Shown here piece by piece: positions 7,316-63,117 of a stretch of DNA of 64,000 nucleotides (the first letter of the stretch is position 1; each line of letters starts with the position of its first letter). Source of the DNA: Blastococcus sp. PRF04-17 (GTDB lineage Bacteria > Actinomycetota > Actinomycetes > Mycobacteriales > Geodermatophilaceae); contig NZ_CP095412.1 in assembly GCF_023016265.1 (NCBI RefSeq), positions 1,116,001 through 1,180,000 of the forward strand. The letters run 5' to 3'. Under the pieces are notes generated by a model that saw nothing but the letters and a program-made list of their open reading frames with translations, was not told the DNA's origin and ran no database searches. Made by a program: the position numbers and the translations under genes.

Positions 7316-8259
7316 TCAGCCGGGGTCGGGTGGGCGGTGATCCTCCTCACGGGGGGCCGCGGCGGACGACTCCTCCGAGGACCCAGCGGGGACCGACGTG
7401 CCCTCCTCCGGCTCCTCCTCGGCCCCGCCTCGATCGATCACCTCGCGCGGCCGCCCGCGCATGTAGAGGAAGTACGCCAGGGCGCCGAGCCCCACCACGA
7501 TCGAGGTGAACACGTTGATGCGCACCCCGAAGGGCTCCTCGGCCGGGTCGGTCCGCAGCAGCTCGATCCAGAGCCGGCCGGCGCAGTAGGACAGCACGTA
7601 CAGGGCGAACGCACGGCCGTGGCCCAGCCGGAAGCGCCGGTCGGCCCAGATGACCAGCGCCGCGGCAGCCAGGTTCCAGAGCAGCTCGTAGAGGAAGGTC
7701 GGATGGAAGGTGCCGAGCACCACCGGCTCACCATCGGGGCCGGACAGGGCCCGGCCGTTCGCCCACTCGTGGATCGTCAGGCCCCACGGCAGGTCGGTCG
7801 GCCCGCCGTAGAGCTCGTTGTTGAACCAGTTGCCCAGCCGGCCGATCGCCTGCGCCACGAGCAGGCCCGGGGCGAGGGCGTCGGCGAAGGCCGGGAGCGG
7901 GATGCCCTTGCGGCGGCAGGCGATCCACGCACCGACGCCGCCGAAGGCGATCGCCCCCCAGATGCCGAGGCCGCCCTCCCAGATGGCGAAGGCCCGCATC
8001 GGGTCGCCGCCCTCGCCGAAGTAGGCGCGGGGGCTGGAGATCACGTGGTAGATCCGGCCGCCGACGATGCCGAAGGGCACCGCCCAGACGGCGATGTCGA
8101 GGGTCTCCCCGGAGCGCCGCCGCGAGCGACCCAGCGCCGGTCGGTGAGCCAGGCAGCCGCGACGATGCCCGCCACGATGCAGAGGGCGTAGGCCCGCAAC
8201 GGCAACGGACCGAGCTCCCAGACGCCCTGCGTCGGGCTGGGGATGGCGGCGAGGATCAT
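7316..8259 (-). CDS. lgt: prolipoprotein diacylglyceryl transferase, one frameshift
   Basis: Membrane enzyme that moves diacylglycerol from phosphatidylglycerol to the lipobox cysteine of prolipoproteins, the step before LspA. Several membrane segments are visible, plus the Lgt signature [15 protein letters not shown] and [10 protein letters not shown]. The C-terminal tail is polar and Glu/Ser-rich (about 40 residues). The N-terminus [14 protein letters not shown] lies in one frame and the rest in the next; the shift falls near 8109-8122 and equals one lost base. The ATG overlaps the trpA stop (TGATG), so translation is coupled. A trpA-lgt junction is common in actinobacteria. About 314 residues once repaired. 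Confidence 0.93.
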
Positions 8260-9056
8260 CACCGCGCTCCCACGGACCGGACACCCCGGGCCAGGTCGTC
8301 GGTCAGGGCCCGGACGCCGTCGGCGCCGCGCCCCTCCAGCAGCTCCCGCACGTACGCCGAGCCCACGATCACGCCGTCGGCGAAGGCGGCCACCTCGGCG
8401 GCCTGGTCGCCGTTCGAGACGCCGAGACCGACGCAGACCGCCAGCTCGGGGGCCACCTCGCGGGTGCGCGCGACGAGCTTCTCCGCGGCGTCCCCGACCG
8501 TGGCGCGGGTGCCGGTGACGCCCATCGTGGAGGCGGCGTAGACGAAGCCCCGGCAGGCGGCGGTCGTGGACCGCAGCCGGGCGTCGGTCGACGAGGGGGC
8601 GACCAGGAACACCCGGTCGAGATCGGCGCGCTCCGCGGCGGCCAGCCACTCCCCGGCCTCCTCGGGGATGAGGTCGGGGGTGATGATCCCCGCTCCTCCG
8701 GCGGCGGCGAGGTCGGTGGCGAACCGGTCGACGCCGTAGCGCTCGATCGGGTTCCAGTAGCTCATCACCACGGGGACGGCGCCGGCGGCGGCCACCGCCT
8801 GCACCGCGCGCAGCACGTCGCGCAGGCCCACGCCCGCACGGACGGCGACGTCGACAGCCTGCTGGATCACCGGCCCGTCCATGCCCGGGTCGCTGTAGGG
8901 GACGCCGATCTCCATGATGTCGGCACCCGCCTCGACCGCGGCCGTCATGGCCTCGACGGAACCGGGGACGTCGGGGTAGCCGACCGGGACGTACGCGATC
9001 AGCGCGGCCCGGCCCTCGGCCTTGGCCTTCCCGATGCGCTCGGCCAGCTTGCTCAC
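8259..9056 (-). CDS. trpA: tryptophan synthase alpha subunit
   Basis: Cleaves indole-3-glycerol phosphate to indole, which passes through a tunnel to TrpB. The 265-residue barrel has the active-site motif [17 protein letters not shown] (catalytic Glu and Asp) and the phosphate loop [19 protein letters not shown] corresponds to the mobile loop 6 region. The start overlaps the trpB stop by 4 nt, and the stop overlaps the lgt start by one base, so all three are translationally coupled. Confidence 0.98.
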
Positions 9057-18776: not shown

Positions 18777-20636
18777 TCAGGCGGGCGCGCTGGGGCGGCC
18801 GGCCGTCGCCGGCTCGCCGGCCGACGAGCGCCGCCAGGACGCGTGCAGCCGGGCGTAGGGCCCCTCGGCGTCGACGAGCTCGGCGTGGGTGCCGCGCTGG
18901 ACGACCCGGCCGGCGTCGACGACGAGCACCTCGTCGGCCCGCTCGGCGGTGGAGAGCCGGTGGGCGATGGTGAGCGTCGTCCGGCCGGTGGTCAGCGTGT
19001 CCAGCGCCCGGGTCAGGGCACGCTCGGTCGCCGGGTCGACGGCGCTGGTCGCCTCGTCCAGCACGAGCAGGTCCGGGTCGGCGACGTAGGCGCGGGCGAC
19101 CGCGACCAGCTGCCGCTCCCCCGCCGAGAGCGACTCCCCGCGCTGGCCGACGGGCGTCGTGACCCCGGCCTCCAGGCCCTCGAGCCAGGCACCGAGGCCG
19201 AGCTCCTCGAACGCCGTGGCGATCTCGCGGTCGCCCAGTCCGGGACGGCCGTACCGGACGTTCTCGGCGATCGTGGCGTCGAAGAGGAAGCCGTCCTGAG
19301 GCACCATGACGACCCGCGTGCGCAGGGAGGCGAACGCGACCTCGTCGAGCGGCACCCAGCCTCCGGCATCGGAGCCGAGCAGGACCCGGCCCTCGACCGG
19401 GTCCATCAGCCGGGTGACCAGCTTGGCGAACGTGGTCTTGCCCGAGCCGGTCTCGCCGACGATCGCCACCCGCCGCCGGGGTTCGAGGGTGAGGTCGACG
19501 CCGTCGAGCGCCCTGCGGCCGCCGGGCACGTAGCTGAACGAGACGTGCTCGAAGCGCACGCCCAGCGGTCCTGGTGGCAGCTCCCGCACCGTCCCCGGTC
19601 CGGTCAGCGCCGGGTCGCGGACGTCGGGCTCGGTGTCGATGACGTCGAGCACCCGGCGGAACCCGGCGACGGCGTTCTGCGCCTCGTTGAGCACCTCGCT
19701 CGCCGTCTGGACGGGCGCGACGAACAGCGTGACCAGGAAGAGGAACGCCACGAGCGTGCCGGCGGAGATCTCGCCGGCCAGCCCGAGGAGCACACCGGCG
19801 ACGACCACCGCGGCGTTGGCCACGGCAGCCACGAACTCACCGGTCACGAACACCGCAGCGGTCACCTTCTGGGCGTTCACCTGCGCGCGGTAGTGGCGGT
19901 CGATCGCGCCGTCGATGCGGGTCGCCGTCCGGCCCCCGACGCCGTAGGCGCGCACGGTCGGCGCGCCGACCACGGACTCGGCCACGGCACCGAGCACGTC
20001 ACCGACCCGCTCGCGGACCACGCCGTAGGCGCCGGCCAGGCGCCTGGCGAACCAGCGGACGGCGTAGCCGAGCGGCAGGAAGCACACGAGCACCAGCAGC
20101 GTGAGCTGCCAGGAGTAGAAGGCCATGACCACGGTGGCGACGACGAGCTGGCCGAGGCTGATCAGGCCGAGGACGCCGCCCCACTGCATGAACACCGACA
20201 GCTGGTCGACGTCGCTGGTGACCCGTGAGACGAGGGACCCGCGGCGCTCGCCCTGCTGGTGCAGCACCGAGAGGTCGTGCACGTGCCGGAACGCGCGCAC
20301 CCGCAGGCCGGCCAGCGCCGTCTCGGTCGTGCGGAACAGCCGCACGTTCATGCGGTAGACCGCGACCGCGGTGATCATCACGACGGCCGCGCACGCCGCG
20401 ATCAGCGCGGTGATGAGCCCCAGGTCCGGCTCGCCGGACGCCAGGCCGCGGTCGATGACCTGCTGGACGGCGATGGGGACGACCACGCGACCGGCGGTGG
20501 CCAGCAGCGCCAGCAGGAACGTGACCGGCAGCCCGCGGCGGAACTCCGGCATCATCCGCAGCCCCCGGCGGAGGGTGGCGAGCGCGCCCTCCGTACGGCG
20601 GTCGGCGGGCAGGCTCACCGCGTCGGCGGCGGTCAT
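18777..20636 (-). CDS. ABC exporter half-transporter (consensus nucleotide site)
   Basis: Fused membrane-ATPase half of a type IV exporter, 619 residues. Six transmembrane helices lie in about 40-330, the ATPase in 365-600. Seen: Walker A GETGSGKTTF, signature LSAGERQ (a variant of LSGGQ), Walker B LLVLDEATSAVD with the catalytic Glu, and H-loop His in IAHRLS. The stronger catalytic residues here pair with a degenerate partner encoded just upstream. ATG 20636 overlaps that partner's stop by 4 nt, so the two are made together, as expected for a heterodimer. Substrate unknown (drug or lipid). Confidence 0.94.
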   Translation of the reverse strand: MTAADAVSLPADRRTEGALATLRRGLRMMPEFRRGLPVTFLLALLATAGRVVVPIAVQQVIDRGLASGEPDLGLITALIAACAAVVMITAVAVYRMNVRLFRTTETALAGLRVRAFRHVHDLSVLHQQGERRGSLVSRVTSDVDQLSVFMQWGGVLGLISLGQLVVATVVMAFYSWQLTLLVLVCFLPLGYAVRWFARRLAGAYGVVRERVGDVLGAVAESVVGAPTVRAYGVGGRTATRIDGAIDRHYRAQVNAQKVTAAVFVTGEFVAAVANAAVVVAGVLLGLAGEISAGTLVAFLFLVTLFVAPVQTASEVLNEAQNAVAGFRRVLDVIDTEPDVRDPALTGPGTVRELPPGPLGVRFEHVSFSYVPGGRRALDGVDLTLEPRRRVAIVGETGSGKTTFAKLVTRLMDPVEGRVLLGSDAGGWVPLDEVAFASLRTRVVMVPQDGFLFDATIAENVRYGRPGLGDREIATAFEELGLGAWLEGLEAGVTTPVGQRGESLSAGERQLVAVARAYVADPDLLVLDEATSAVDPATERALTRALDTLTTGRTTLTIAHRLSTAERADEVLVVDAGRVVQRGTHAELVDAEGPYARLHASWRRSSAGEPATAGRPSAPA

Positions 20637-22423
20637 GCGGCCACCTCCGCCTGGGAGTACGCCCGCACGAGCGCGGCGTAGCCGGGGACCTCGTCGAGCA
20701 GCTGCTCGTGGCTGCCGCGCGCGAGCACGCGCCCCTGCTCGAGCCAGACGACCTCGTCGGCGAGGGCGATCGTGGCCTGGCGGTAGGCGACCACGACCAC
20801 GGTGGTCGGCTGCTCGCTGGGGGGCCCTTCTCTCGACTGCAGGGCGTCGAGGATCCGGGCCTCGACCGCCGGGTCGACGGCGCTGGTGGCGTCGTCCAGG
20901 ACGAGCAGCCGGGGACGGCGGACCACGGCCCGGGCGAGCGCGAGGCGCTGCCGCTGACCGCCCGACAGGGTCGCCCCGCGCTCGCCGATCCGGGTGTCGA
21001 GGCCGTCGGGCAGGTCGGCGACGAACTGGGCGGCCGCCGCGACCCGCAGGGCCGCCCACACCTCGTCGTCGCTGAAGGGCTCGTCGAGGGTGATGTTGCC
21101 GCGGACGGTGTCGTCGAACAGGAAGGTGCCCTGCGCGACGAAGGCGGCCTGCCCGCTGACCTCGCCCTCGCGCAGCCGTCGCAGGTCGACGCCGTCGAGC
21201 ACGACCGAGCCGTCGGTCGGGTCCACCAGCCGGACCAGCAGGCCGGCGAGGGTCGACTTGCCCGAGCCGGTGGGGCCGACGACGGCGACGGTGCTCCCCG
21301 CGGGGACGTCGAAGGTGACGCCCGACAGCGTGGGTCGGGTGGTGTCGGCGAAGGTGAAGTCGACGGCGGCCAGGCCCAGCGCGGCGCCGCCGGTGGCCGG
21401 GGCGGCGGCCTCGGAACCGTAGGGCGTCTCACCGGTGGCGTCGAGCACCGGGGTGACGCGGTCGAACCCGGCGAGTGCCCGCGGGAGGTCGGCCAGCACC
21501 CAGCCGATGGCCCGGATCGGCAGCGCCAGCAGGGTGAACAGGTAGGCGATGGACACGAGGCTGCCGGCGTCGGTGCTGCCGTCGGCGACCCGGCCCGCCC
21601 CGATCAGCAGGACGGCGAGGGTGCCGAGGCTGGGCAGCGCCTCCATCAGCGGGTCGAACAGGCCCCGGACGCGGCCGACGGCGACCAGCCCGTCGCGCAG
21701 CTCCTCGGCGCGCCGGCCGAAGCGCTCGGTCTCCGACGCCTCGCGGCCGAGGGTCTTCACCACCAGCGCCGCGTCGAAGCTCTCGTGGGCGATCTCGCTG
21801 ACCTCGGCCCGCAGCTGCTGGGCCCGCTGCATGCGCGGGCTCATGACCTGCGAGTAGACGACGTTGACGACGAAGACCAGCGGGAAGACCACCAGCCCGA
21901 CCAGCGCGATCAACGGATCGGTGAGGAAGAGCGCCACGACGGTGATGACGATCATGACGATGGCGCCGCAGGCGAAGGGCAGGGGCGCGACGAAGAACCA
22001 CGCCGCCTCGACGTCGGAGTTGGCGTTCGACAGCAGCTGACCGGTCGGGTGGCGCTGGTGCCAGGACAGCGGCAGCCGGAGGTACTGGCGGGTGACCCGG
22101 CGGCGGTACTCGGCCTGCAGCCGGAAGCTCATGATGCCGGCGAAGAGCCGGCGGCCGAGGATGCCGAGGATCTTGAGCAGCGCGACCCCGATGATCGCGG
22201 CGGAGGCAAGCGCGAGGGCCGCGGCGGTGGTGGCGCCCTCGGCGAACGAGGGCAGCAGCACCCGGTCGGTGACTTCGCCGATGACCCAGGCGCTGGCAAC
22301 CGTCATCGCCCCGTACAGGCTGCTGGCCAGCAGGGCGGCGGTGAACATGCCGGGCTGTTCGACGATCGCGCGCCGGATGTGTCGGAGACCGCGCCGCACC
22401 ACGGCGTCTCGGCGGCGGGCCAC
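20633..22423 (-). CDS. ABC exporter half-transporter (degenerate nucleotide site)
   Basis: Partner half-transporter, 596 residues, with six membrane helices (about 25-310) and an ATPase domain. Walker A GPTGSGKST and a canonical LSGGQRQ are present, but Walker B ends LLVLDDATSAVD (Asp in place of catalytic Glu) and the H-loop reads VVAYRQAT (no His). This is the usual asymmetry of heterodimeric exporters such as LmrCD or TmrAB: the intact LSGGQ completes the good site on the other subunit. GTG 22423 has AAGGAGA about 6 nt upstream. It is divergent from the TIGR03085 gene, across a 118-bp gap. Confidence 0.94.
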   Translation of the reverse strand: MARRRDAVVRRGLRHIRRAIVEQPGMFTAALLASSLYGAMTVASAWVIGEVTDRVLLPSFAEGATTAAALALASAAIIGVALLKILGILGRRLFAGIMSFRLQAEYRRRVTRQYLRLPLSWHQRHPTGQLLSNANSDVEAAWFFVAPLPFACGAIVMIVITVVALFLTDPLIALVGLVVFPLVFVVNVVYSQVMSPRMQRAQQLRAEVSEIAHESFDAALVVKTLGREASETERFGRRAEELRDGLVAVGRVRGLFDPLMEALPSLGTLAVLLIGAGRVADGSTDAGSLVSIAYLFTLLALPIRAIGWVLADLPRALAGFDRVTPVLDATGETPYGSEAAAPATGGAALGLAAVDFTFADTTRPTLSGVTFDVPAGSTVAVVGPTGSGKSTLAGLLVRLVDPTDGSVVLDGVDLRRLREGEVSGQAAFVAQGTFLFDDTVRGNITLDEPFSDDEVWAALRVAAAAQFVADLPDGLDTRIGERGATLSGGQRQRLALARAVVRRPRLLVLDDATSAVDPAVEARILDALQSREGPPSEQPTTVVVVAYRQATIALADEVVWLEQGRVLARGSHEQLLDEVPGYAALVRAYSQAEVAA

Positions 22424-23233: not shown

Positions 23234-24292
23234 TCAGGTCGTGCGCGTCACCTTGGTGAGGCCCAGCGGCCGGTCCGGGTCCAGGCCCTTGCGCAGTGCG
23301 AGCTCGAGGGCCAGCGACTGGACGGGAACGATGCTCAGCACGGGCAGGAGCTCGTCCGCCACGTCCGGAGGCAGGATCCCGGCGAGTCCAGACCCCTCGG
23401 GGTCGTTGCCGATCAGGTGGACGTCGGCGCCACGCCCGTACAGGTCCGGTAGCAGCGCCTCCACCGATGCGCGGCCGGTCCGCTCCCCGACGAAGCAGAA
23501 GACAGGCGTACCCGTCGTGACGGCGGCCAGCGGGCCGTGCTTGGCGTCCGCCGCGCTCCACCCCGACGCGGCGATGCTGCTCGTCTCCATCAGCTTCAGC
23601 GCGCCTTCCCGGGCGGTCGCGGCACCGAAGGCGCGACCGATCAGGAGCGCGCGATCGGCGTCGGCCAGCCGCTCCGCCAGGTCCGGGGCCAGCCCGGCCG
23701 AGCGCCGGATCACCGTTCGCCCGTGTTCGGCCAGGGCGCGGATGTCGGCGTCCACCCGCCCGGCGGGATCCCCGGCGACGGCACGCAACCACATGTGGAG
23801 GGCGATCAGCTCCGCCGTGTAGGACTTCGTCGCCGCCACGGAGCGCTCGGGACCGGCGAGCAGGGGGACGTGGACGTCGGCAGCCAGGGCGAGGGGGCTG
23901 CCCGGATCGTTGGTGAAGGCGATCGTCGGGCCGCCGCGGGCTCGCGCGCTCTCCAGCGTCGCGATCAGATCCGGCGACGCGCCGCTCTGGGACACCGCCA
24001 CCAGGCAGCTGTTCGGGTCGTGGACGTTGCGTCCGTAGACAGTCGCGACGCTGGGCGTGGCCATCGCCGCGGGCAGCCCGAGGAGCGCCTGGGCCAAGTA
24101 CTGCGCGTAGACCGCCGCGTGGTCGCTGGTGCCCCGCGCCGCGAAGACGAGACCGGACAACCGCCCCGCGGCGAGCCGGTCACGGAGGAACTCCGCTGCT
24201 GCGTCCACGGCACGGCGGTCGGCGACGAGGTCGAGCCAGCGGTCGGGCTGCTCCGCGATCTCGCGGCGCATCAGCTCCCCGGGGGCCGTCAC
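23234..24292 (-). CDS. SIS-domain sugar isomerase/deaminase (GlmS C-half type)
   Basis: Tandem SIS protein of 352 residues, like the isomerase half of GlmS without the glutaminase part; expected to act on a phosphorylated (amino)sugar. First SIS: ARGTSDHAAVYAQYLAQ and AVSQSGASPDLIATL; second: IGRAFGAATAREGALKLMETS, then the DAKHGPLA loop typical of this family. It is the last gene of the binding protein-Php-ROK-permease-YhfX-ATPase operon and overlaps the ATPase gene by 4 nt. With the ROK kinase in the same operon, a route of import, phosphorylation and isomerisation is likely. Deaminase versus isomerase cannot be decided. Confidence 0.9.
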   Translation of the reverse strand: MTAPGELMRREIAEQPDRWLDLVADRRAVDAAAEFLRDRLAAGRLSGLVFAARGTSDHAAVYAQYLAQALLGLPAAMATPSVATVYGRNVHDPNSCLVAVSQSGASPDLIATLESARARGGPTIAFTNDPGSPLALAADVHVPLLAGPERSVAATKSYTAELIALHMWLRAVAGDPAGRVDADIRALAEHGRTVIRRSAGLAPDLAERLADADRALLIGRAFGAATAREGALKLMETSSIAASGWSAADAKHGPLAAVTTGTPVFCFVGERTGRASVEALLPDLYGRGADVHLIGNDPEGSGLAGILPPDVADELLPVLSIVPVQSLALELALRKGLDPDRPLGLTKVTRTT

Positions 24293-25038
24293 GACAGGCC
24301 CGTGATCATCGAGACGATCTCGTTGCGGCTGGTCTCCTGCACCGACCGGACCCCGACCTGCTTGCCACGTCGCAGCACCGCGATGCGGTCGGCGAGCCGG
24401 AACACCTGGTCGAGGTTGTGGCTCACCAGGAGGACGGCCGCGCCGCGCTCGCGCAGGCGGGCGATCAGCTCCTCCACCTTCGCCGTCTCGGCGACGCCGA
24501 GCGCCGCCGTCGGCTCGTCCATGAGGACCAGCCCGGTCGCCCAGTGGGTGGCGCGGCAGATCGCGATGCCCTGGCGCTGGCCACCCGAAAGGTCGCGCAG
24601 CGTGGCCCGGGCGGACGGGATGCGGACGTCGAGGGCGTCGACGAGCTCCTGCGTCTCCCTCGCCATGCGCCGCCGGTCGAGCAGCCGGAGCGGACCACGG
24701 ACCAGCTCGCGCCCGAGGAACATGTTCATGTAGACGGGCTGCTCGTCGACCAGGGCCAGGTCCTGGTAGACCACCTCCACTCCCTTCCGCCGGGCGTCGG
24801 AGGCGTCACGGAAGTGGACCTGCTCGCCGTTGAGCCAGATCTCGCCCTCGCTCGGCTGGTAGAGGCCGGAGATGATCTTCACCAGCGTCGACTTGCCGGC
24901 CCCGTTGTCGCCCACGAGCGCGACGATCTCCCCCGCGGCGACCTCGAGGTCGAAGCGCTCGACCGCGACGACACCGCCGAAGTGCTTGTGGATGCCGTTC
25001 AGTCGCAGCGGTACCTGCACGGCGGTGGCGGCGGTCAC
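24289..25038 (-). CDS. sugar ABC transporter ATP-binding protein (single domain)
   Basis: Energises import through the permease encoded two genes upstream. Of 249 residues: Walker A GDNGAGKSTL, signature LSGGQRQG, Walker B LVLMDEPTAAL, H-loop VSHNLDQ. It has one ATPase domain, like FrcA, not the fused pair of RbsA, so it probably works as a homodimer. GTG 25038 overlaps the YhfX-type gene's stop by 4 nt; earlier in-frame starts would lie within that gene and lack homology. Confidence 0.94.
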   Translation of the reverse strand: MTAATAVQVPLRLNGIHKHFGGVVAVERFDLEVAAGEIVALVGDNGAGKSTLVKIISGLYQPSEGEIWLNGEQVHFRDASDARRKGVEVVYQDLALVDEQPVYMNMFLGRELVRGPLRLLDRRRMARETQELVDALDVRIPSARATLRDLSGGQRQGIAICRATHWATGLVLMDEPTAALGVAETAKVEELIARLRERGAAVLLVSHNLDQVFRLADRIAVLRRGKQVGVRSVQETSRNEIVSMITGLS

Positions 25039-26276
25039 GGGTTCCTCCGGCGGTCGGCGAGCACGTTCGAGGTGTCTGGGGAGAGGTGCTGCGGCAGCGA
25101 GCCGTCGGCGGCCCACACGCCGACGACGTGCGGTCGGCCGGTCGACACACCGGCGATGGCCGCGGTGAGAGCCCGGGTGACGAACACCTGTGCGCGGAAG
25201 CCGAAGACCACCGTGTCGCCCACCTCGACGGAGGGCCCGTCGGAGGCGTCGACGATCGCGTAGTAGTCGATGGCCTCCGGGGCGGGCATCTCCACCGGCA
25301 GCGTCGGCGCGGTGGCCGGGTCGGCGCCGTCCCCGACGACGACGGCGCGGGTGGCCGTCCCCCCGAGTACGGGATCCACGTAGAGGCCGCCGCCGAAGAC
25401 GTACGCACCTCCGCCGTAGGTGTGCGACACCTCCGACACATAGGCGACGGCGGGCTCCTCGACCAGGTCCTCCACGGCGTGCCACGGGGTGGTGCCGGTG
25501 AGGCCGTGGCCCGGCTCGACCTGGGTCACGCCGGCCTCGGCCAGCATCGGCAGGGTCGCCGCGGAAGTGGTTCCCGGCCCGTTGACGGCGACGTCCGCCC
25601 GCCCGGCGCGCCGCAGGCGCTCCACCGCCACCTGCAGGGTCGCGAGGTTCGGGGTGGGCCGGACCGTCCGGGCGTCACTGTCGAAGAGCATCGCCGGGAA
25701 CGTCGTCACACCCGCGAAGCGCCCACCGGTCAGCCCGTCGAGCCGGTCGGCGACGCGGACGACGTCCGCGGCGTCGAACCCGCCCTCGTGGCCGCGGTAG
25801 AAGCGGTCCCCGTCGGCCACGATCCGGGCGAGCAGCGCCTGCTCCCGACCGGCGGCAGCGCTGGCAGCGGCGGCCTCGGCGGCCTTCGTCTCGTTGAACA
25901 CGGTCCAGAAGGACGGCGCCAGCGCGGCGCCTCGGGCCGCCTCGGACCGCGGGATCTGCACCAGGTGCCCCAGGTGACCGATGCGGAGACCGCCGGCCGC
26001 GTCGGCCTCAGCGTCCTGCAGGTCGACCCCCACGGCGTGCGTGATCCCCTCCTCGGCCAGCGCCCGGGAGACGTCGGGGTTGCGACCGAGCTGCTTGGTC
26101 ATGGCGAAGGCGCTCAGCCCCAGCCGCGCGGCCTCGGCCGCGATCGCCGCGGCGTTGCGGCGCACGGCGTCGAGGTCGATCGCATAGCAGTTGGCCGGCA
26201 GCTCGCCGGAGCGGTGCAGCTGCGCGGCGGCGCGCAGGAAGTCCGGGTTGCGCCTGCGGAGCAGGTCCAGGAACAC
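25035..26276 (-). CDS. YhfX-type PLP enzyme (alanine racemase-like fold)
   Basis: Resembles E. coli YhfX, an uncharacterised fold-type III PLP protein. Matching segments: RRNPDFLRAA near the start, MTKQLGRNP (PLP lysine region), GHLVQIPRSE, the TPNLATLQVAVE helix, VEPGHGLTGTTP and SEVSHTYGGGAY. GGAGGG lies before GTG 26276, giving 413 residues. In E. coli yhfX is in one operon with yhfV (php), and here a Php homologue is also in the operon, which suggests they work in one pathway. Racemase, deaminase or transaminase activity is possible; the substrate is unknown. Stop overlaps the ATPase gene. Confidence 0.85.
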   Translation of the reverse strand: MFLDLLRRRNPDFLRAAAQLHRSGELPANCYAIDLDAVRRNAAAIAAEAARLGLSAFAMTKQLGRNPDVSRALAEEGITHAVGVDLQDAEADAAGGLRIGHLGHLVQIPRSEAARGAALAPSFWTVFNETKAAEAAAASAAAGREQALLARIVADGDRFYRGHEGGFDAADVVRVADRLDGLTGGRFAGVTTFPAMLFDSDARTVRPTPNLATLQVAVERLRRAGRADVAVNGPGTTSAATLPMLAEAGVTQVEPGHGLTGTTPWHAVEDLVEEPAVAYVSEVSHTYGGGAYVFGGGLYVDPVLGGTATRAVVVGDGADPATAPTLPVEMPAPEAIDYYAIVDASDGPSVEVGDTVVFGFRAQVFVTRALTAAIAGVSTGRPHVVGVWAADGSLPQHLSPDTSNVLADRRRNP

Positions 26277-26290
26277 GTCTCTTCCCTCCG

Positions 26291-27262
26291 TCAGCTGCCG
26301 CGCTTGCCGCGGAGCGAGATCGACACGGCGATGAGGATGATCGCGGCGCGGGCGACCATCTGCTGCGACACCGACAGCCCGGCGAGGATCAGCCCGTTGT
26401 TGAGCATGGTCATGAGCAGGCTGCCGACGACCGCGCCGACGACCGAGCCCTTGCCGCCGAACAGGCTGGTGCCGCCGACGATGACGGCGGCGATCGCCGT
26501 CATGAGGTCCGCCTCGCCCAGGGTGTACCGGGCGCCCTGCAGGCGGGCGGAGTAGAGCAGCCCCACCACGGACGCGGCCATCGCGCTGCCCACGAGGACG
26601 GCGACCCGGACCCGGTCCACCTTGATCCCGCTGACCCGCGCGGCGGAGGCGTTGTTCCCCACGGCCAGCACGTGCGCGCCGTACCGGGTCTGGCGCAGCG
26701 CCACTGCGCCCAGGACGACGATGAAGGCGGCCCACCAGACGGTGGCCGGCAGCCCCAGCCACTTCGCACCGAACAGGCTGATGAAGGCGCTGTCGGTGAC
26801 GGGCACGGACTGCAGGTCGGTGAGTTCCCGGGCGAGGCCGGCGACCAGACCCATCGTCGCCAGCGTGACCAGGAAGGACGGCAGCCGTACGGCGGCGACG
26901 AAGATCCCGTTGAGCAGGCCCACACCCAGCCCCACCCCGAGCGCCGCAAGCACGGCCAGCGGCCACGACCCGGTGTTCTGCAGGACGACCGCGGCGCTCA
27001 GGGCCGACAGGGCCACCACGGATCCGATCGACAGGTCGATCTCGCCGGCCGACAGGACGAAGACCAGTCCCACGGCGAGCACCATGATCGGCGCCGCCTG
27101 CACGAGGATGTTCGTGAGGTTGGGGACGCTCAGGAAGCTCGAGGGCTGGGTGACGGCGAAGAAGAGGAAGACGACGACGAAGCCGGCGTAGACGACGTAG
27201 TCCTTCCACTGGACGCCCGCGAGCCAGCCGGGTCGCTGGGCCGGCGCTGTGGTCGTGGTCAT
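26291..27262 (-). CDS. sugar ABC transporter permease (RbsC/FrcB type)
   Basis: Inner-membrane channel of the importer, 323 residues with about nine or ten hydrophobic segments. The family motifs AGEIDLSIGSVVALSA, LPSFLVTLATMGLVAG, AVGNNASAARVSGIKV and IVGGTSLFGGKGSVVGA are all present. The start overlaps the ROK kinase stop by 4 nt; the YhfX-type gene follows 14 nt later. Together with the binding protein and single-domain ATPase, this is a complete ribose-class (CUT2) importer. Confidence 0.95.
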   Translation of the reverse strand: MTTTTAPAQRPGWLAGVQWKDYVVYAGFVVVFLFFAVTQPSSFLSVPNLTNILVQAAPIMVLAVGLVFVLSAGEIDLSIGSVVALSALSAAVVLQNTGSWPLAVLAALGVGLGVGLLNGIFVAAVRLPSFLVTLATMGLVAGLARELTDLQSVPVTDSAFISLFGAKWLGLPATVWWAAFIVVLGAVALRQTRYGAHVLAVGNNASAARVSGIKVDRVRVAVLVGSAMAASVVGLLYSARLQGARYTLGEADLMTAIAAVIVGGTSLFGGKGSVVGAVVGSLLMTMLNNGLILAGLSVSQQMVARAAIILIAVSISLRGKRGS

Positions 27263-28221
27263 TCGGAGTCCTCCGGGTCGGAGCCGAGACGGGCGGCGCG
27301 CAGCGCCAGGTCGAGGGTGCCGACGACCGACGCACGGGTCCCCAGCGTGGTGGTGCGGACGTCCACGGGCGCCTTGCCGAGCTCGGCGAGGGCGGCCCGC
27401 ACGGGGGACAGCAGTTCGGGGCGGGAGCCGACGCCCCCGCCGAGGACGACGAGCGCGGGGTCGAGCACCGCGGTCACCGCAGTGATCGTCAGGGCGAGGA
27501 GACGGCCGTGCTCGGCCACGACGGCGACGGCGGCCGGGACGCCACGGGCGGCCAGGTCGAAGACCTCGCGGGTGCTCGTGGCCGTGCCGGTCGCCGCGCT
27601 GTAGCGGGCGGCGACCGTCTCCCCCGCCGTGGCCTCCTCCAGTGCACCGCGGTGCTGGTTCACGGGGTCGAACGGGTCCGTTCCGAGCGGGAGGTAGCCG
27701 ATCTCGCCGGCGGCCCCGTGGGCGCCGCGGACGACGCGGCCACCGCTGACGATGCCCATACCGATCCCGGTCCCCACGGCGATGAAGACGAAGTCGGCGC
27801 AGCCGCGCGCCGAACCGACCCAGCGCTCGCCGACCGCGGCGGCGGTGACGTCGTTCTCGAGCACGACGGGGTGCCCGAGTTCTGCTGCCAGCTCGTCGCG
27901 CAGGCTCACACCGGACAGGCCGTCGACGTTCGGTGACAGCCCGAGGGTGCCGTTCTGCGCGTCGGGCACGCCCGGTGTGCCGACAGCGGTCGCACGGACG
28001 GCGGCGGGCACCGCGCCGGCAGAGCTCACCAGGCTCCGGCCGAGTACCGCGATCTGGTCGACGACGTGACGTCCGCCGCGCGGGTCCGTCGCGGTCGCCA
28101 TCTCGGCGAGGACTGCGCCGGACTCGTCGGCGACGGCTGCGCGGACCTTGGTCCCGCCGAGATCCACACCCAACACCAGGGCGCCGTCCCGGCCAGATGG
28201 GCCGGACGGGTCGTGAGGCAC
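27259..28221 (-). CDS. ROK-family sugar kinase without zinc-site cysteines
   Basis: Predicted kinase of the imported sugar, 320 residues. ATP/phosphate loops GVDLGGTKVRAAV and VAVGTGIGMGIVSGG and the catalytic Asp in VLENDVTAAAVGE are present. The ROK signature normally continues to a CXCGXXGCXE zinc site, but here the stretch GEIGYLPLGTDPFDPVNQHRG has no cysteine, so the zinc-stabilised loop is replaced. AAGGAGCAGACC precedes GTG 28221. It overlaps the permease gene by 4 nt and follows the phosphotriesterase homologue by 45 nt. Substrate unknown; glucose, N-acetyl-sugars or keto-sugars are all possible. Confidence 0.88.
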   Translation of the reverse strand: MPHDPSGPSGRDGALVLGVDLGGTKVRAAVADESGAVLAEMATATDPRGGRHVVDQIAVLGRSLVSSAGAVPAAVRATAVGTPGVPDAQNGTLGLSPNVDGLSGVSLRDELAAELGHPVVLENDVTAAAVGERWVGSARGCADFVFIAVGTGIGMGIVSGGRVVRGAHGAAGEIGYLPLGTDPFDPVNQHRGALEEATAGETVAARYSAATGTATSTREVFDLAARGVPAAVAVVAEHGRLLALTITAVTAVLDPALVVLGGGVGSRPELLSPVRAALAELGKAPVDVRTTTLGTRASVVGTLDLALRAARLGSDPEDSE

Positions 28222-28266
28222 GGTCTGCTCCTTCGGCGCCCCCGCCGTGCGAGGGCCGTGGGACTG

Positions 28267-29274
28267 TCAGGAAACGGTGAGCAGCCGCGCAGGGTTGCGC
28301 GCCAGCATCTGGTCCAGCGCGTGCTCCGGGACGCCGAGGTCGCGCACCATCGGCACGAAGCTCCGGCCCAGGTACGAGTAGCCGCTCTGGCCGTGGGTCG
28401 CGGCGTTGAGGTAGACCTCGGCGCCGGTCATGTCCAGGGACAGCAGGATCCGGTCGGCGTACCCCTCGGCCACGAGCGTCGCCAGCCCCTGCGCCCGGGA
28501 GCGGTCGGAGCGGTAGTACGCCCGCTTGCCGAACTCACCCTCCGGCGGGTCGGCCGGTGGCGGCGCGAGGACGAAGTCCCAGAACTGCTTGCCGATGGTG
28601 TCGAAGGCGACGCTCACGCCGGTGTCCAGGACGCGCTGGACGTACGACAGGTCGGGGTGGATGTCCATGTGCCCGATGACGACGCGGGACAGGTCCATGC
28701 CCTCCTCCCGGAGGATCTCGACCTGCTCGAGCGCCATCGTGCCGTGCGTGGTGTGCGTGTTGAGCGCCAGCCCGGTGTCCCGGCAGGCCCGCGCCGCCGC
28801 TCGGAGGCACTTCTCCTCGTGGACGGTGATCTCGTCCAGGCCGGTCGCCTGCTCACCGAGGATCCCGACCGTGATGCCGGTCCCGCCGACGCCGACGGTG
28901 GCGTCGGCGACGAACCGGGCGTGCATGGCGTCCACGTCGGCCGCCAGCGCCCACTGCGGTGAGTAGGGCTCCAGGTAGACCGACGCCCCGGCGACGACGT
29001 GCAGTCCGCTCCGACGGGAGATCTCCTGCAGCAGACCGAGGCTGTCACCTTCGGCGTCACGTCCCACCACGCCGTACGGGCTGAGGTCGACGACGGTGCC
29101 GAAGCCCAGATCACCGATTCCCCGCAGGGCCGTCACGGCGACCTCCACCGGGTCGTCGACGGTCCCGCCGGACAACCACGGACCGGGGACGAGCGAGACG
29201 AGGTGCTCGTGCGGCATGATCCGGCCGAGGTCGGCGGGGTCGACGGGGCCGAGGACGGTTTGGACGTGGCCCAT
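28267..29274 (-). CDS. phosphotriesterase-homology (Php-type) hydrolase
   Basis: Amidohydrolase-superfamily member of 335 residues; characterised relatives are lactonases, including sugar-lactone phosphate lactonases, rather than true phosphotriesterases. Metal-site motifs: the HxH-like MPHEHL near residue 21, a possible bridging Glu in VGILGEQ, histidines in LNTHTTHG and VIGHMDIHPD, and the Asp in LLSLDMTG. GGAGGAACCCG precedes ATG 29274. It is the second gene of the operon, after the binding protein and the 29298-29334 hairpin. Cleavage of a sugar lactone or of an amide bond in the imported compound is inferred from context only. Confidence 0.88.
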   Translation of the reverse strand: MGHVQTVLGPVDPADLGRIMPHEHLVSLVPGPWLSGGTVDDPVEVAVTALRGIGDLGFGTVVDLSPYGVVGRDAEGDSLGLLQEISRRSGLHVVAGASVYLEPYSPQWALAADVDAMHARFVADATVGVGGTGITVGILGEQATGLDEITVHEEKCLRAAARACRDTGLALNTHTTHGTMALEQVEILREEGMDLSRVVIGHMDIHPDLSYVQRVLDTGVSVAFDTIGKQFWDFVLAPPPADPPEGEFGKRAYYRSDRSRAQGLATLVAEGYADRILLSLDMTGAEVYLNAATHGQSGYSYLGRSFVPMVRDLGVPEHALDQMLARNPARLLTVS

Positions 29275-29297
29275 CGGGTTCCTCCGGAGGTGGGTGC

Positions 29298-29334
29298 TCC
29301 CCGGGGCCGGCGCCTGCGCGACCGGCCCCGGGGA
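29298..29334. repeat. 13-bp GC hairpin after the binding-protein gene
   Basis: Perfectly paired arms (29298-29310 and 29322-29334) with an 11-nt loop lie between the binding-protein stop and the Php-type start. There is no T-tract. Such hairpins commonly protect the upstream mRNA or cut downstream expression, so that more binding protein than permease is made. The other sugar ABC operon in the window has the same device at 63069-63103. Confidence 0.75.
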
Positions 29335-29339
29335 ACGGA

Positions 29340-30458
29340 TCAGGGAAGGACGCCGGACGGGGGCTCTTCGGCGTAGTCGCTCTCCCAGCCCTCGACGATG
29401 TTGTCCTTCGTGACGGCGAACGGCGGGTTCGCGACGAGCTCGGGAGCCTGCTTGCCGAGGACGCCATAGGCACCCACGATCGCCAGCCCTCGGCCCAGGC
29501 CGACCGACGAGTTCCCCACGATGCCCACGACGTTGCCGTCCCGCATCATGTCCGAGGCCAGATTCGCCTCGAGGTCGTTCGTGACCACCTTGACGTCGCT
29601 TCGGCCGGCCTGGCGCAGAGCGGCGAGCACGCCCTCCGCGGCGGTGGCCCAGGCGACGTAGATGCCCTTGATCTCGGGGTTGCGCGTGATCATCGCGTTG
29701 GCGATGTCCTCGGTGCGGGCCGGGTCGCTGAAGCCCTCCTCCGCGACGATCTCGATGTCGGGGTAGAGGTGGGCGGTCCAGTCCTTGAACGCCTGGTCGC
29801 GCTGGTTGGTGAACCAGAAGTCGGCGTCGTGGTACAGGTACCCGACCTCGCCCTCGCCGCCGATGGCCTCACCGAGCATCTCGGCGTTGGCCTTGCCGTA
29901 CTCGGTGAGGGCACCGGTGACGATGGAGACGATCTCGTCGCCGCTCTCGTAGCCGGCCGGCGGCGTGGTCATGACCGCGAGCTTGACGCCGGCGTCGACG
30001 GCCGGCTGGAACGCCGCGGCGGCCGACGTGGGGTCGACGGCGATCGTCACGATGATGTCGGGATCGAGCGCGAGCACGCTCTGCAGGTTGTCGGCCTGGC
30101 GGGCAGGGTCGAAGCCGGCCTCGGTGCTGGCAACGACCTCGATCCCCAGGCGCTCGAACTCCTCGCGAGCGCCCTTCTCGGTGGCGCCCACGAGCGCCGA
30201 GGACTCGTGCCACACGAAGGCGGCGGTGTAGTTGCCCGCCTTGACCTGGGCGACCTCCTCGTCGGTCAGCTCCAGTTGGTCGAGGCTCTCGGGCGTCTCG
30301 CCGTTGGGCCCGGTGAACTCCAGGCTCGGCTCCTCCGCAGGGCTTCGATCGGCGGAGGCGTCGTCGGCCTCCCCGCTGCAGGCGGTCAGCGCGAGCGACC
30401 CCGCGAGGGTGGCCGCGACGGCGAGCCGCCAGGTCTTGCCGCTGAGCATGTGCTTCAT
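29340..30458 (-). CDS. sugar ABC transporter substrate-binding lipoprotein
   Basis: Captures the substrate outside the membrane. ATG 30458 follows GAGGAGACAGCA and gives MKHMLSGKTWRL, a hydrophobic stretch and the lipobox LTAC, so the mature lipoprotein starts at the Cys and is processed by Lgt/LspA. The rest (372 residues in total) is a periplasmic binding protein type 1-like fold: VLALDPDIIVTIAVDP, DVKVVTNDLEANL and GKANAEMLGEAIGGEG. First gene of the seven-gene operon, divergent from the ROK repressor gene. Confidence 0.93.
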   Translation of the reverse strand: MKHMLSGKTWRLAVAATLAGSLALTACSGEADDASADRSPAEEPSLEFTGPNGETPESLDQLELTDEEVAQVKAGNYTAAFVWHESSALVGATEKGAREEFERLGIEVVASTEAGFDPARQADNLQSVLALDPDIIVTIAVDPTSAAAAFQPAVDAGVKLAVMTTPPAGYESGDEIVSIVTGALTEYGKANAEMLGEAIGGEGEVGYLYHDADFWFTNQRDQAFKDWTAHLYPDIEIVAEEGFSDPARTEDIANAMITRNPEIKGIYVAWATAAEGVLAALRQAGRSDVKVVTNDLEANLASDMMRDGNVVGIVGNSSVGLGRGLAIVGAYGVLGKQAPELVANPPFAVTKDNIVEGWESDYAEEPPSGVLP

Positions 30459-30522
30459 TGCTGTCTCCTCGGGCGAGTGCCGCGCTGGTAGCGGGCCAAG
30501 CGCTTTCAATTTCACGCTGAAC

Positions 30523-30555
30523 GTATTAGAACGACATCTAGCCCGTCGGTGTCAA
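30523..30555 (-). promoter_or_regulatory. promoter region of the Php/YhfX sugar operon
   Basis: On the minus strand a consensus -35 TTGACA (30555-30550) is followed by TCTAAT (30530-30525) at 19-nt spacing or TAATAC (30528-30523) at 21 nt. On the plus strand GAACG occurs twice in tandem, ten bases apart, over the -10 region, a possible site for the divergently encoded ROK repressor. This lies in the 195-bp gap between the two start codons. Confidence 0.45.
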
Positions 30556-30653
30556 GACCGCGCGGACGAAGTAGCGTCACGGTCTGGTCACGAGGTTACA
30601 TACGGCCTCGGATAGCGAACCATTGGCCTCAGTTCGCAAGGAAAGGAGGGGGC

Positions 30654-31835
30654 ATGGAGCCGGAAGTCTCGAACCGGAACCGTGCAGCCGTCCTGGCGCA
30701 CGTGCTGGAGGCCTCCCCGACCACCCGGGCCGCCGCGGCCACCGCGACGGGCCTGTCCCCTGCCACCGTCTCGCGCATGGTCGACGCGCTGATGAGCGAG
30801 GGCCTGCTGCGCGAGACCGACGAGGTCGCCAGCGGACGACGTGGGCGCCGGGCCACCCTGCTCGAGGCCGTCGCCGACCGGAGCGTGGTCGTGGGCGTGG
30901 ACCTCGGCGCCTCCAGCGCCCGCTTCATCGTCGCCGACCTGCTGGGTCAACCGCTGCATCACCGCACCTGCCCGACACCCACCGACCGCGGCCCCGCCGA
31001 GTTGGCGGCCTGGCTGGCCGAGGAGGTGGTGGCGACCGCCGGCGACCTGGCGGACCGGCTGGCGGCGGTCGCCATCGGGCTGCCGGGGGCGGTCCGCCGG
31101 CACGACCGCCGGGTCTTCAGCGCGCCGAACCTGCCGCAGGTGGAGCAGCCGGTCTTCCTCGACGTTCTCGAGGAGCGGCTCGGACCCGGACTCGACCTCG
31201 ACAACGACTCCAACTACGCCCTGCTCGGCGAGCAGCGGTTCGGCGCCGCACGGTCGGCTCCCACGGCCGTGATGCTGACGGTGGGGGCGGGGCTCGGGGC
31301 GGGCGTGGCACTGGACGGCCGGCTCCTGCGCGGACGCAACGGGCTGGTGGGCGAATTCGGTCACCTGCCTGTCGGACCCCTCGGCTCCCCTCTGGAGCAC
31401 CTGGTCACCGGGCCGGGGATCATGCGCCGAGCCGCGGAGCTGGGCGTCGACATCGCCTCGCCCGCGGCTCTGTTCTCCCCCGACGCCGACGGTCAGCTCC
31501 TGGCGATGCGCCGCCACGTCGAGCAGGCACTGCTCGTCGTCCTCACCGCCGCGGTCGTGAGCTACGAGCCGGACACGATCGTGCTCGGCGGGCGTATCGC
31601 CCGGTCCCTCGCGCCCCACCTCGACGGCCTGGGCGAGGACCTCCGGCGGACCGTGCCCTCCGCGCCGCCGGTCGTCCCAGCCCAACTGGGCGACCTCTCG
31701 GGGGCTCTGGGCGCGGTGGTGGCCGCACTGCACCGCGTCTACCTCGGCCTGGGGGTCGGTGAGCAGGACCTCGTCCGGGTGCCGCGCCCCCGGGACCTGG
31801 GCCTGGCTGAGTCGGACCTGGCGGACGCGGGCTGA
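30654..31835 (+). CDS. ROK-family (NagC/XylR-like) transcriptional repressor
   Basis: Local regulator of the divergent sugar operon. The first ~75 of 393 residues are a winged helix-turn-helix (TRAAAATATGLSPATVSRMVDALMSEG is the HTH). The remainder is the ROK ligand-binding fold with VGVDLGASSARFIVAD, DNDSNYALLGEQ and TVGAGLGAGVALDG. As in the kinase of this operon, the usual ROK zinc-binding cysteines are absent after GEFGHLPVG. AAGGAGGGGGC precedes ATG 30654. Release of repression by the substrate or its phosphate is likely. Confidence 0.92.
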   Translation: MEPEVSNRNRAAVLAHVLEASPTTRAAAATATGLSPATVSRMVDALMSEGLLRETDEVASGRRGRRATLLEAVADRSVVVGVDLGASSARFIVADLLGQPLHHRTCPTPTDRGPAELAAWLAEEVVATAGDLADRLAAVAIGLPGAVRRHDRRVFSAPNLPQVEQPVFLDVLEERLGPGLDLDNDSNYALLGEQRFGAARSAPTAVMLTVGAGLGAGVALDGRLLRGRNGLVGEFGHLPVGPLGSPLEHLVTGPGIMRRAAELGVDIASPAALFSPDADGQLLAMRRHVEQALLVVLTAAVVSYEPDTIVLGGRIARSLAPHLDGLGEDLRRTVPSAPPVVPAQLGDLSGALGAVVAALHRVYLGLGVGEQDLVRVPRPRDLGLAESDLADAG

Positions 31836-31950: not shown

Positions 31951-32740
31951 GGAGCGGGTGGTCGACCTCGTGGCGCACCGGGTGGCCGGCGTCGGCGAGG
32001 GCGGCCTTGACGTCGCCGACCCGCAGGACGCCGAAGTGGAAGACGCTCGCGGCGAGCACGGCGTCCGCGCCGGCGTCCACCGCGGGCGGGAAGTGCTGAG
32101 GAGCCCCCGCTCCCCCGCTGGCGATCAGCGGCACGCTCACCTCGCGCCGGACCAGCCTGATCAGCTCGGTGTCGAAGCCGGCCCGGGTGCCGTCGGCGTC
32201 CATGGAGTTGAGCAGGATCTCGCCGGCGCCGAGCTCCGCAGCGCGGACGCACCACTCGACGGCGTCCTGACCGGTGCCCCGCCGGCCGCCGTGGGTGGTG
32301 ATCTCGAAGCCGGAGTCGGTCGCGGCGCCGTCCTGCACGCGGCGCGCGTCCAGGGACAGCACCAGCACCTGGTTGCCGAACCGGTCGGCGATCTCGGCGA
32401 TCAGCTCCGGCCGCGCCACCGCGGCGGTGTTCACGCCGACCTTGTCCGCGCCGGCTCGCAGCAGCCGGTCGACGTCCTCGACGCTGCGCACGCCGCCGCC
32501 CACCGTCAGCGGGATGAACACGCTCTCGGCGGTGCGGCTGACCATGTCGTAGGTGGTGGCGCGGTCGCCGGAGCTGGCGGTGATGTCCAGGAAGGTGAGC
32601 TCGTCGGCGCCCTCGGCGTCGTACACGCGCGCCATCTCGACGGGGTCACCGGCGTCGCGCAGGTCGACGAAGTTCACCCCCTTGACAACCCGGCCGGCGT
32701 CGACGTCCAGGCACGGGATCACCCGCACGGCGAGACTCAC
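31946..32740 (-). CDS. hisF: imidazole glycerol phosphate synthase, cyclase subunit
   Basis: Uses ammonia from HisH to close the imidazole ring of histidine and release AICAR. The 264-residue barrel has the catalytic Asp in [27 protein letters not shown] and ASGGAG phosphate loops and the second catalytic Asp in [11 protein letters not shown] 32740 overlaps the ridA stop by 4 nt. The stop codon lies inside the arm of a terminator-like hairpin. In M. tuberculosis hisI follows directly; here 18 kb of other genes intervene. Confidence 0.97.
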
Positions 32741-33129
32741 GCCCCGGCTCCGCGCACGGCGTCGGCCTCGATCTCGACGAGCATCTCGGGGTCGATCAGG
32801 GCGGAGACCTCGACCATCGTGGTCGCCGGCCGGATGTCGCCGAAGAACTCGCCGTGGGCCCGCCCGACCTCCTCCCACCGGGAGATGTCGGTGACGAACA
32901 TCCGCGTGCGGACGACGTCGGCGAGGGTGAACCCGGCCCGTTCCAGAGACCGCTCGATGGTGGACAGCACCTGCCGGGTCTGTTCGGCCGCGTCGCCGGG
33001 ATGGGCCACCGCGCCGTCGACGACCGACGTCGTCCCGCTGACCCAGGCGGCGTCCCCGCGGACGACGACCCGGCTGTAGCCGACGACGCCCTCCCACGGC
33101 GCGCCCGAGCCCAGGCGGATGACGCTCAC
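32737..33129 (-). CDS. RidA-family protein inside the his operon
   Basis: Rid/YjgF/UK114 family, 130 residues. Classical members hydrolyse reactive enamine/imine products of PLP enzymes. The substrate-carboxylate Arg of the RPATTMVEV motif and the EIEADA motif are present, so it may be active. It overlaps both hisA (4 nt) and hisF (4 nt), in the place where other actinobacteria have a non-his gene between hisA and hisF. A role in clearing side products of the HisC transaminase is a guess from position. Confidence 0.9.
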
Positions 33130-33859
33130 GCGCTCGCCTCCTCGGTGACCCGCAGCGCCTCCGGGAGCGTGAACGCGCCCGCGTACAGCGCCTTGCCCAC
33201 GATCGCCCCTTCGACGCCGATCGCGGTGAGCCCGGTGAGCGCGCGGATGTCGTCCAGCGAGCTGACGCCGCCGGACGCGATGACCGGGCGGGGCGTGGCG
33301 GCGCAGACCTCGCGCAGCAGGCCGAGGTTGGGGCCCTGGAGCGTCCCGTCCTTGGTGATGTCGGTGACGACGTACCGGGCACAGCCCTCGGCGTCGAGGC
33401 GGGCCAGCGTCTCGTAGAGCTCGCCGCCCTCCTTGGTCCAGCCTCGGGCCGCCAGCCGCGTGCCCCGCACGTCGAGGCCGACGGCGATGCGGTCACCGTG
33501 CTCGGCGATCGCCCGGGCGCACCACTCCGGCGACTCCAGCGCCGCGGTGCCCAGGTTCACCCGGCGGCAGCCGGTCGCCAGGGCCGCGGCCAGCGACTCG
33601 TCGTCCCGGATGCCGCCGGAGAGCTCGACGTCGACGTCCAGCTCGCCCACGACCCGGGCGAGCAGCTCGCGGTTGGTCCCGCGGCCGAACGCCGCGTCGA
33701 GGTCGACGAGGTGGACCCACTCGGCGCCGTCGCGCTGCCACTGCAGCGCGGCCTCGAGGGGATCCCCGTAGGAGGTCTCGCTCCCGGCCTCCCCTGGACG
33801 AGACGGACGGCCTGGCCGTCGGCGACGTCGACGGCGGGGAGCAGCTGCAGCTTCGGCAC
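33126..33859 (-). CDS. hisA: ProFAR isomerase, one frameshift
   Basis: Isomerises ProFAR to PRFAR, the substrate of HisHF; in many actinobacteria the same enzyme (PriA) also serves tryptophan synthesis, and no trpF is seen here. N-terminus [23 protein letters not shown] (catalytic Asp in AVDV) is in one frame; [11 protein letters not shown] and the rest, with [11 protein letters not shown] and [12 protein letters not shown], is in the next. Restoring a G in the GGGG run at 33791-33794 repairs it, a typical homopolymer error. Length about 244. GTG 33859 is 7 nt after TAGGCT, a leaderless start. It overlaps ridA. Confidence 0.94.
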
Positions 33860-61095: not shown

Positions 61096-61111
61096 CGACC
61101 CGCCGACCCCC

Positions 61112-63021: not shown

Positions 63022-63068
63022 GGGGAGGCTCCCGTCAGCGCGGGTGGTGACACGGGGATGGGGTGTGC

Positions 63069-63103: not shown

Positions 63104-63117
63104 CGGACCGGCCGAGG

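Follow-up and report, generated by a model that had tools for sequence, protein, structure and literature searches.

The yhf operon of Escherichia coli (php, yhfS, yhfT, yhfU, yhfW, yhfX, yhfZ) encodes two proteins of solved structure, YhfX (PDB code 4kbx) and the metallohydrolase Php (1bf6 and 4lef); no established function for the operon, YhfX or Php was found in the literature searched. A YhfX homologue is encoded in a 64,000-nucleotide stretch of the Blastococcus sp. PRF04-17 genome (contig NZ_CP095412.1, positions 1,116,001 to 1,180,000; hereafter the window), within an eight-gene cluster at 23234-31835 that also encodes a CUT2-type ATP-binding cassette (ABC) importer, a PTE-family metallohydrolase, a ROK-family sugar kinase, a SIS protein and a divergent ROK regulator. 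We propose, with confidence evenly balanced for and against, that this operon imports and catabolises an amide-conjugated amino sugar of the glucosamine type, the conjugate probably being an amino acid. The proposal is built on observed gene content, conserved gene order, intact catalytic motifs and replacement of the hydrolase, kinase and deaminase in other lineages, because the exchanged parts share one chemistry each: amide cutting, amino-sugar phosphorylation and amino-sugar-phosphate deamination.

What the window cluster has in common with the yhf operon is YhfX and a PTE-family hydrolase with a bridging glutamate. The first-pass annotation of this DNA had noted that E. coli carries YhfX and Php without the transport and kinase set, and this was borne out: no CUT2 importer, ROK or SIS protein was recognised in the E. 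coli stretch, and none of YhfS, YhfT, DUF2620 or YhfW in the window cluster. The window PTE-type protein further differs from E. coli Php in loop 8 and in model score. The NagK/NagB-II and NagA/NagB pathways resemble the window system in that a kinase is followed by a deaminase, either a SIS protein of the NagB-II group or a NagB-type protein, and NagA above its curated cut-off occurs in one related locus. In contrast to these pathways, the window system adds YhfX and a CUT2 importer, most scores fall below the equivalog cut-offs, and a PTE or M20 protein stands in the expected place of NagA in 73 of 78 loci. The ong oxidative chitin pathway of Pseudoalteromonas also pairs a metallo-deacylase with a fold III pyridoxal 5'-phosphate (PLP) enzyme for a sugar-like amino acid but, in the portion of the source available (PMC9537276), has a different hydrolase family, an SSS transporter, a MurR/RpiR regulator and KdgK, and no NagB-type step. 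An OngB-type D-aminoacylase with KdgK was not recognised among the eight window proteins, where the hydrolase is of the PTE family; no search started from OngB itself. The gene set as a whole is not described in the literature searched, most subscription journals lying outside its coverage.

Organisation of the cluster and its importer

Pfam and NCBIfam searches placed all eight genes in the families first assigned to them. Seven lie on the minus strand, in the transcription order CUT2-type solute-binding lipoprotein (29340-30458; Peripla_BP_4, 132 bits, with a lipobox-like LTAC read in the sequence), Php-like PTE-family metallohydrolase of a subfamily of its own (28267-29274; PF02126, 176 bits), ROK sugar kinase, predicted to be active (27259-28221; 170 bits), CUT2-type permease (26291-27262; BPD_transp_2, 124 bits), YhfX-type fold III PLP protein (25035-26276; YhfX-like_C (PF21279) 83 bits and Ala_racemase_N (PF01168) 53 bits), single-domain importer ATPase (24289-25038; ABC_tran, 106 bits) and SIS protein of the GlmS/NagB-II group (23234-24292). 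The ROK regulator is transcribed divergently (30654-31835, plus strand). Coding likely starts at a GTG at 26276 for YhfX and at ATG codons at 30458 and 30654 for the binding protein and the regulator. An overlap of 4 nt was found at three of the six junctions (SIS/ATPase, ATPase/YhfX and permease/kinase), with gaps of 14, 45 and 65 nt at the others; the earlier description of the genes as mostly overlapping by 4 nt was therefore too strong.

With a Peripla_BP_4 protein, a BPD_transp_2 permease and an ABC ATPase encoded together, the cluster holds the parts of a CUT2 transporter, which is very likely the importer of the operon. It had been called ribose-class; an importer of the small-sugar type is supported, but the ATPase is a single domain of 249 residues and not tandem as in RbsA. 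The relatives of the binding protein in the PDB are all distant (best E 4.5e-14), and its sequence did not point to a ligand, the matches being distant and spread over many CUT2 proteins. Related binding proteins and permeases also occur without YhfX in L170-L174, beside genes that read as Gfo/Idh-like and sugar-isomerase-like, and these neighbourhoods are uninformative about the ligand.

Conservation across lineages

A collection with one genome per species (84,980 species) was scanned with a pattern based on the YhfX alignment, which returned 371 relatives; loci were the best 80 of the 371, and tblastn with reference proteins and those of the window gave the gene order. Searching deeper actinobacterial groups with the binding protein and then YhfX added L175, L176 and 18 more loci. 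Well-flanked loci are those whose sequence extends 6 kb or more upstream of YhfX and 3.5 kb or more downstream (63 of 80, and 78 of 101 in the enlarged set); hydrolase and deaminase genes were counted on the YhfX strand within 9 kb (63-locus set) or 7 kb (78-locus set). The short loci L001-L008 were excluded from scans of loci, Bacillota are represented by one locus only (L072), and related genomes were counted singly, so that locus counts are not counts of independent events.

In 60 of the 63 well-flanked loci, YhfX sits immediately between permease and ATPase. This placement, and the recurrence of the gene set in named members of the actinobacteria and the alphaproteobacteria, show a conserved cassette and not a chance neighbourhood. 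Most actinobacteria have the divergent regulator followed by binding protein, PTE, ROK kinase, permease, YhfX, ATPase and often SIS, while alphaproteobacteria have ROK, M20, one or two binding proteins, permease, YhfX, ATPase and sometimes SIS. A third form (L051, L061, L069, L070 and L074) includes an amino-acid permease, with PTE at the end of the cluster, and in small forms (L013, L020, L021 and L082) YhfX is accompanied by an amino-acid permease and no CUT2 importer was recognised. The co-occurrence search proposed with the first-pass annotation thus speaks for one functional unit: chance proximity is ruled out by the recurring gene set, the YhfX placement and the finding, over 78 loci, that two families never share a slot.

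The distribution of YhfX is patchy, with a copy in five of 98 genomes of kin (own genome included); in a phylum-wide spread of 396 genomes nine match at E 1e-3, five of these below 1e-30, again including its own. The nearest named YhfX among the matches listed is that of Blastococcus atacamensis (88% identical), and no relative was found in viral contigs. The YhfX match of L183 (G597), from a draft genome, carries one in-frame TAG. Upstream of the Bacillota YhfX cluster (L072, 1568-4526) lie proline racemase-like and ornithine cyclodeaminase-like genes.

Exchange of the hydrolase

The hydrolase slot of the 78 loci is filled by PTE in 35, M20 in 38 and NagA in one, is empty in four, and never holds two. 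Taken jointly with the deaminase, the tally is PTE with SIS 26, M20 alone 15, M20 with NagB 14, PTE alone 9, M20 with SIS 9, neither 3, SIS alone 1 and NagA with a NagB-like protein 1; the PTE gene of L071, on the opposite strand, was scored as no hydrolase. Of the 39 actinobacterial loci in the 63-locus set, 34 have PTE and 3 have M20; of the 23 alphaproteobacterial loci, none has PTE and 22 have M20. No locus has both, and the sole Bacillota locus has neither. M20 is also present in all 12 loci with an intact upstream flank among L199-L215, from another actinobacterial class. On the YhfX tree the PTE/M20 label switches at least three times, and L030 and L047, both with M20, fall within the PTE clade of the actinobacteria (quick method with SH-aLRT only; L019, the same strain as L102, and copies below 330 residues excluded).

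The M20 protein of L009 (Aminobacter) best matches an ArgE/DapE deacylase model, at 157 bits against a cut-off of 218, and at least 95% of 37 M20 proteins retain H86, D124, E158, E159, E193 and H389, the putative metal ligands. The NagA of L216 scores 287 bits, above its curated cut-off of 226, and its gene overlaps that of YhfX; the pair adjoins a gene for a family-5 binding protein of the peptide type, and the locus also encodes an FGGY kinase and a creatininase, the last outside the families counted. An M24 peptidase takes the apparent hydrolase role in L176, a single locus cut by a contig end and outside the 78.

In the window PTE-type protein the HxH motif, bridging residue, two histidines and aspartate of the family are all in place (H22, H24, E141, H174, H202 and D281), and they are invariant in all 42 cluster homologues. 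The bridging residue is a glutamate, as in E. coli Php, whereas loop 8 reads DLTGAE (36 of 42) or DMTGAE (6 of 42) in place of DITRRS, so that the Arg-Arg pair is absent. This comparison drew on a tree with outside PTE members, used for the loop alone, for which 13 of 30 fetched loci had a usable frame; two of the 13 proved to belong to the cluster proteins and were removed, and the alignment was poor for several of the rest. The earlier label of a Php-type hydrolase therefore stands as regards a PTE-family hydrolase, but "Php" is loose, with 149 bits to the E. coli Php equivalog (PRK09875) against a cut-off of 486. No second PTE-family gene was found in the organism's own genome.

As to the reaction, we favour amide hydrolysis over lactone opening and consider it somewhat better than evenly supported as the chemistry of this slot. 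The opening of a sugar lactone or lactone phosphate by the PTE-type protein, as first suggested, fits the bridging glutamate shared with E. coli Php and a structural model (predicted local distance difference test, pLDDT, 90) whose nearest structures are PLL lactonases and PTE. It is nonetheless quite improbable, since PTE is replaced by M20, once by NagA and apparently by M24, which are amide or peptide hydrolases, and since the E. coli loop is missing from all 42 proteins; the phospho-furanose lactonase model (NF045706) gives the window protein 88 bits against a cut-off of 630.

Exchange of the deaminase

Over the same 78 loci the deaminase slot holds SIS in 36, NagB in 14, a NagB-like protein in one and none in 27, and never two. 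The window SIS protein scores 186 bits to GlmS and 182 bits to NagB-II, compared with 40 to FrlB and 33 to MurQ (NCBIfam); the NagB-II model (NF046059) has a cut-off of 430, and the Rhizobium SIS of L010 reaches 275 bits to it. Four residues, K233, E236, H252 and K347, are shared by at least 95% of 53 homologues and match the GlmS/NagB-II catalytic residues; we take them to correspond to GlmS 485, 488, 504 and 603 of the isomerase site. Sixteen of the 17 loci L199-L215 carry NagB downstream of the ATPase gene, which it follows directly in 14; a polyphosphate-glucokinase-like gene intervenes in L213 and L215. NagB also occupies the deaminase position in the alphaproteobacterial loci L078 and L081.

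The GlmS/NagB-II affinity, the four conserved residues and the substitution by NagB make deamination likelier than plain isomerisation, and the SIS protein, at first called an isomerase, is probably an amino-sugar-phosphate deaminase. A plain sugar isomerase is disfavoured by the same family scores and by the NagB replacement, and the score of 33 bits speaks against an N-acetylmuramic acid etherase (MurQ). The fructoselysine pathway uses a kinase together with a SIS deglycase to free an amino acid and yield a hexose phosphate. An Amadori or Heyns compound could be catabolised here in the same manner, with the hydrolase first removing an acyl or peptide group and YhfX handling the amino acid, and the amino-acid permease of some clusters would suit this. 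Such a route seems improbable given the SIS preference for NagB-II/GlmS over FrlB and the replacement of SIS by NagB, which together indicate a free C2 amine.

Kinases and the divergent regulator

The window kinase carries the DLGGTK and END motifs of an active ROK sugar kinase, and 39 of 40 same-strand homologues keep the ATP motif. Its nearest solved relatives are glucokinases, beta-glucoside kinase, NanK and NagK, and we consider it likely, in line with the first annotation, that it phosphorylates a sugar. Other loci have a NagK-type kinase (L072 and L176) or a polyphosphate-glucokinase-like kinase (L213, L215 and L175). The NagK-type gene of L176 (about 7917-8930, minus strand), in a draft genome, is broken by a stop.

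The regulator, correctly recognised at the outset, has helix-turn-helix (HTH) and ROK matches and a degenerate kinase motif, DLGASS standing where the kinase has DLGGTK. The ATP motif is kept in 71 of 81 same-strand ROK copies (two of them regulator-type) but in 1 of 45 divergent copies, and in 0 of 37 divergent homologues of the regulator. The ROK protein of L009 (3285-4499), most similar to the actinobacterial stand-alone kinase, combines an HTH with intact kinase motifs. Because 32 of 39 same-strand copies of this type keep the ATP motif (the HTH being checked in L009), they are possible kinase-regulator fusions, and in alphaproteobacteria a single protein may serve as both kinase and regulator.

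An inverted repeat, TTTGATT-n6-10-AATCAAA with at most two mismatches, was found in 25 of the 36 divergent intergenic regions, compared with none in 50 shuffles, which ignore relatedness. The window region lacks this element and instead carries an operator-like inverted repeat, TTCAGCGTGAA (30510-30522, minus strand). The sequence RTTCAGNNTGAAM occurs three times in the 4.6 Mb genome, window site included, and TTCAG-n1-2-TGAA in six of 36 related intergenic regions.

Fold and possible reactions of YhfX

The window YhfX matches PF21279 and PF01168 above cut-off, aligns end to end with E. coli YhfX and keeps the lysine; no NCBIfam model matched it. It matches 4kbx with E 5.5e-69, and its AlphaFold model (pLDDT 91) superposes on that structure with TM scores of 0.88/0.94, at 35% identity over the model alignment (37% by tblastn). 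At least 98 of 99 homologues share 54 positions, including K61, which presumably binds PLP, H104, E282, H285, D337, Y339, R361 and Q363. A PLP enzyme for the nitrogen side, as first suggested, is supported. A second, distinct YhfX paralogue lies in or beside the clusters of L030, L047 and L071, and the three form one clade.

After 4kbx, the nearest solved structures are D-threonine aldolases and beta-hydroxyaspartate aldolase (E 1e-17 to 1e-15), followed by a mixture of alanine racemases and D-serine dehydratases (E about 1e-14 to 1e-12). In a profile search the only same-fold enzymes besides 4kbx were 6qkb (E 0.0011) and 7yqa (E 0.02), both of the D-threonine aldolase/D-serine dehydratase group, with two unrelated chains at E 0.1 and 0.6. 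This group, the nearest in fold, has a C-terminal H-x-C/D metal motif; YhfX gave no PF14031 match, the motif is absent from its invariant columns of 42 proteins, and a weak hhalign alignment (probability 6%, E 0.006) ends where SHPC would face RAQV. YhfX thus appears to lack the metal site of D-threonine aldolases. Plain alanine racemase membership was rejected, as the fold search ranks aldolases first; a racemase reaction is still compatible, and that YhfX is an amino-acid racemase is a tentative assignment.

The aldolase neighbours bring in a different substrate, a 2-amino sugar acid bearing an N-acyl group, or its lactone, an example being N-acetyl-glucosaminate derived from oxidised chitin. 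The hydrolase would deprotect this compound before YhfX deaminates, cleaves or epimerises it at C2, by analogy with OngB and OngC of Pseudoalteromonas; PMC12017989 is cited in support. A sugar-like amino acid would fit both the CUT2 importer and the amino-acid permease. This is unlikely overall: it has no need of an amino-sugar-phosphate deaminase, SIS or NagB, none of the eight window proteins matches a KDG-kinase family (Pfam, NCBIfam), and the H-x-C/D motif appears to be missing.

Alternatively, YhfX could be a metal-free fold III epimerase (or aldolase) acting at the amine-bearing C2 of the freed 2-amino sugar, as a PLP-dependent 2-epimerase that would turn, for example, mannosamine into glucosamine before phosphorylation and deamination, with no amino acid involved. 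This would place every gene in one linear route, and suits both the clusters that hold a hydrolase, a kinase and a deaminase and the overlapping NagA and YhfX genes of L216. However, it does not easily explain the amino-acid permeases or L082, and we know of no PLP epimerase of free 2-amino aldoses; we regard it, too, as improbable.

Proposed pathway

In the amide-conjugate reading, whose reactions, step order and substrate we infer from the genes, the conjugated amino sugar would enter through the CUT2 transporter and its amide would be cut by a metallohydrolase in the cytosol, which is of the PTE type here and M20, NagA or perhaps M24 in other loci. The freed amino sugar would be phosphorylated by the ROK kinase, and the SIS protein would convert the amino-sugar 6-phosphate to fructose 6-phosphate and ammonia. 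On the amino acid set free, YhfX would act by PLP chemistry at the carbon that bears the amine, racemisation being the foremost candidate, and the divergent ROK protein would repress the operon. With hydrolase, kinase and deaminase each swapped in some lineage, the partner reactions of YhfX point to amino-sugar chemistry, and the cassette context makes its reaction testable with a short list of compounds. If correct, this would reveal a route, in soil and in the sea, for using an amino-sugar conjugate not recognised before, and would add a PTE-family enzyme that probably acts on an amide; if YhfX acts on amino sugars, PLP would have a new role in sugar catabolism and the orphan E. coli yhf operon would gain a lead.

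Several observations weigh against this pathway. The window SIS, PTE and kinase all fall below the curated cut-offs of named models, as does the L072 kinase (96 bits to NagK against 370). Eight NagB proteins, including that of L175, score 253-286 bits to the glucosamine-6-phosphate deaminase subfamily (cut-off 326) and 212-232 bits to TIGR00502 (cut-off 236.9), and the NagB-like proteins are weaker still (L176, 110 bits; L216, 62 and 47 bits). The 27 loci without a nearby deaminase gene may use one elsewhere or need none. The genome itself encodes a second SIS protein, GlmS-like at 35%, and PF01182 proteins at two places, possible glucosamine 6-phosphate deaminases or relatives, so that amino-sugar deamination could be served from elsewhere. 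Kin often carry PTE-family genes (21 of 41 genomes), and the lactonase neighbours of the PTE model weigh in favour of a lactone, just as the aldolase neighbours of YhfX count against racemisation. In L082 the only recognised genes are ROK, YhfX and an amino-acid permease, which means that YhfX may act without hydrolase or deaminase.

Neighbouring genes

Reading of the flanking sequence identified, all on the minus strand of the window, an adjacent pair of ABC exporter half-transporter-like genes (18777-22423), HisF-like and HisA-like histidine biosynthesis genes with a small RidA-like gene between them (31958-33650), and an alpha-galactosidase-like gene with a CUT1-type sugar ABC importer (59746-63995).

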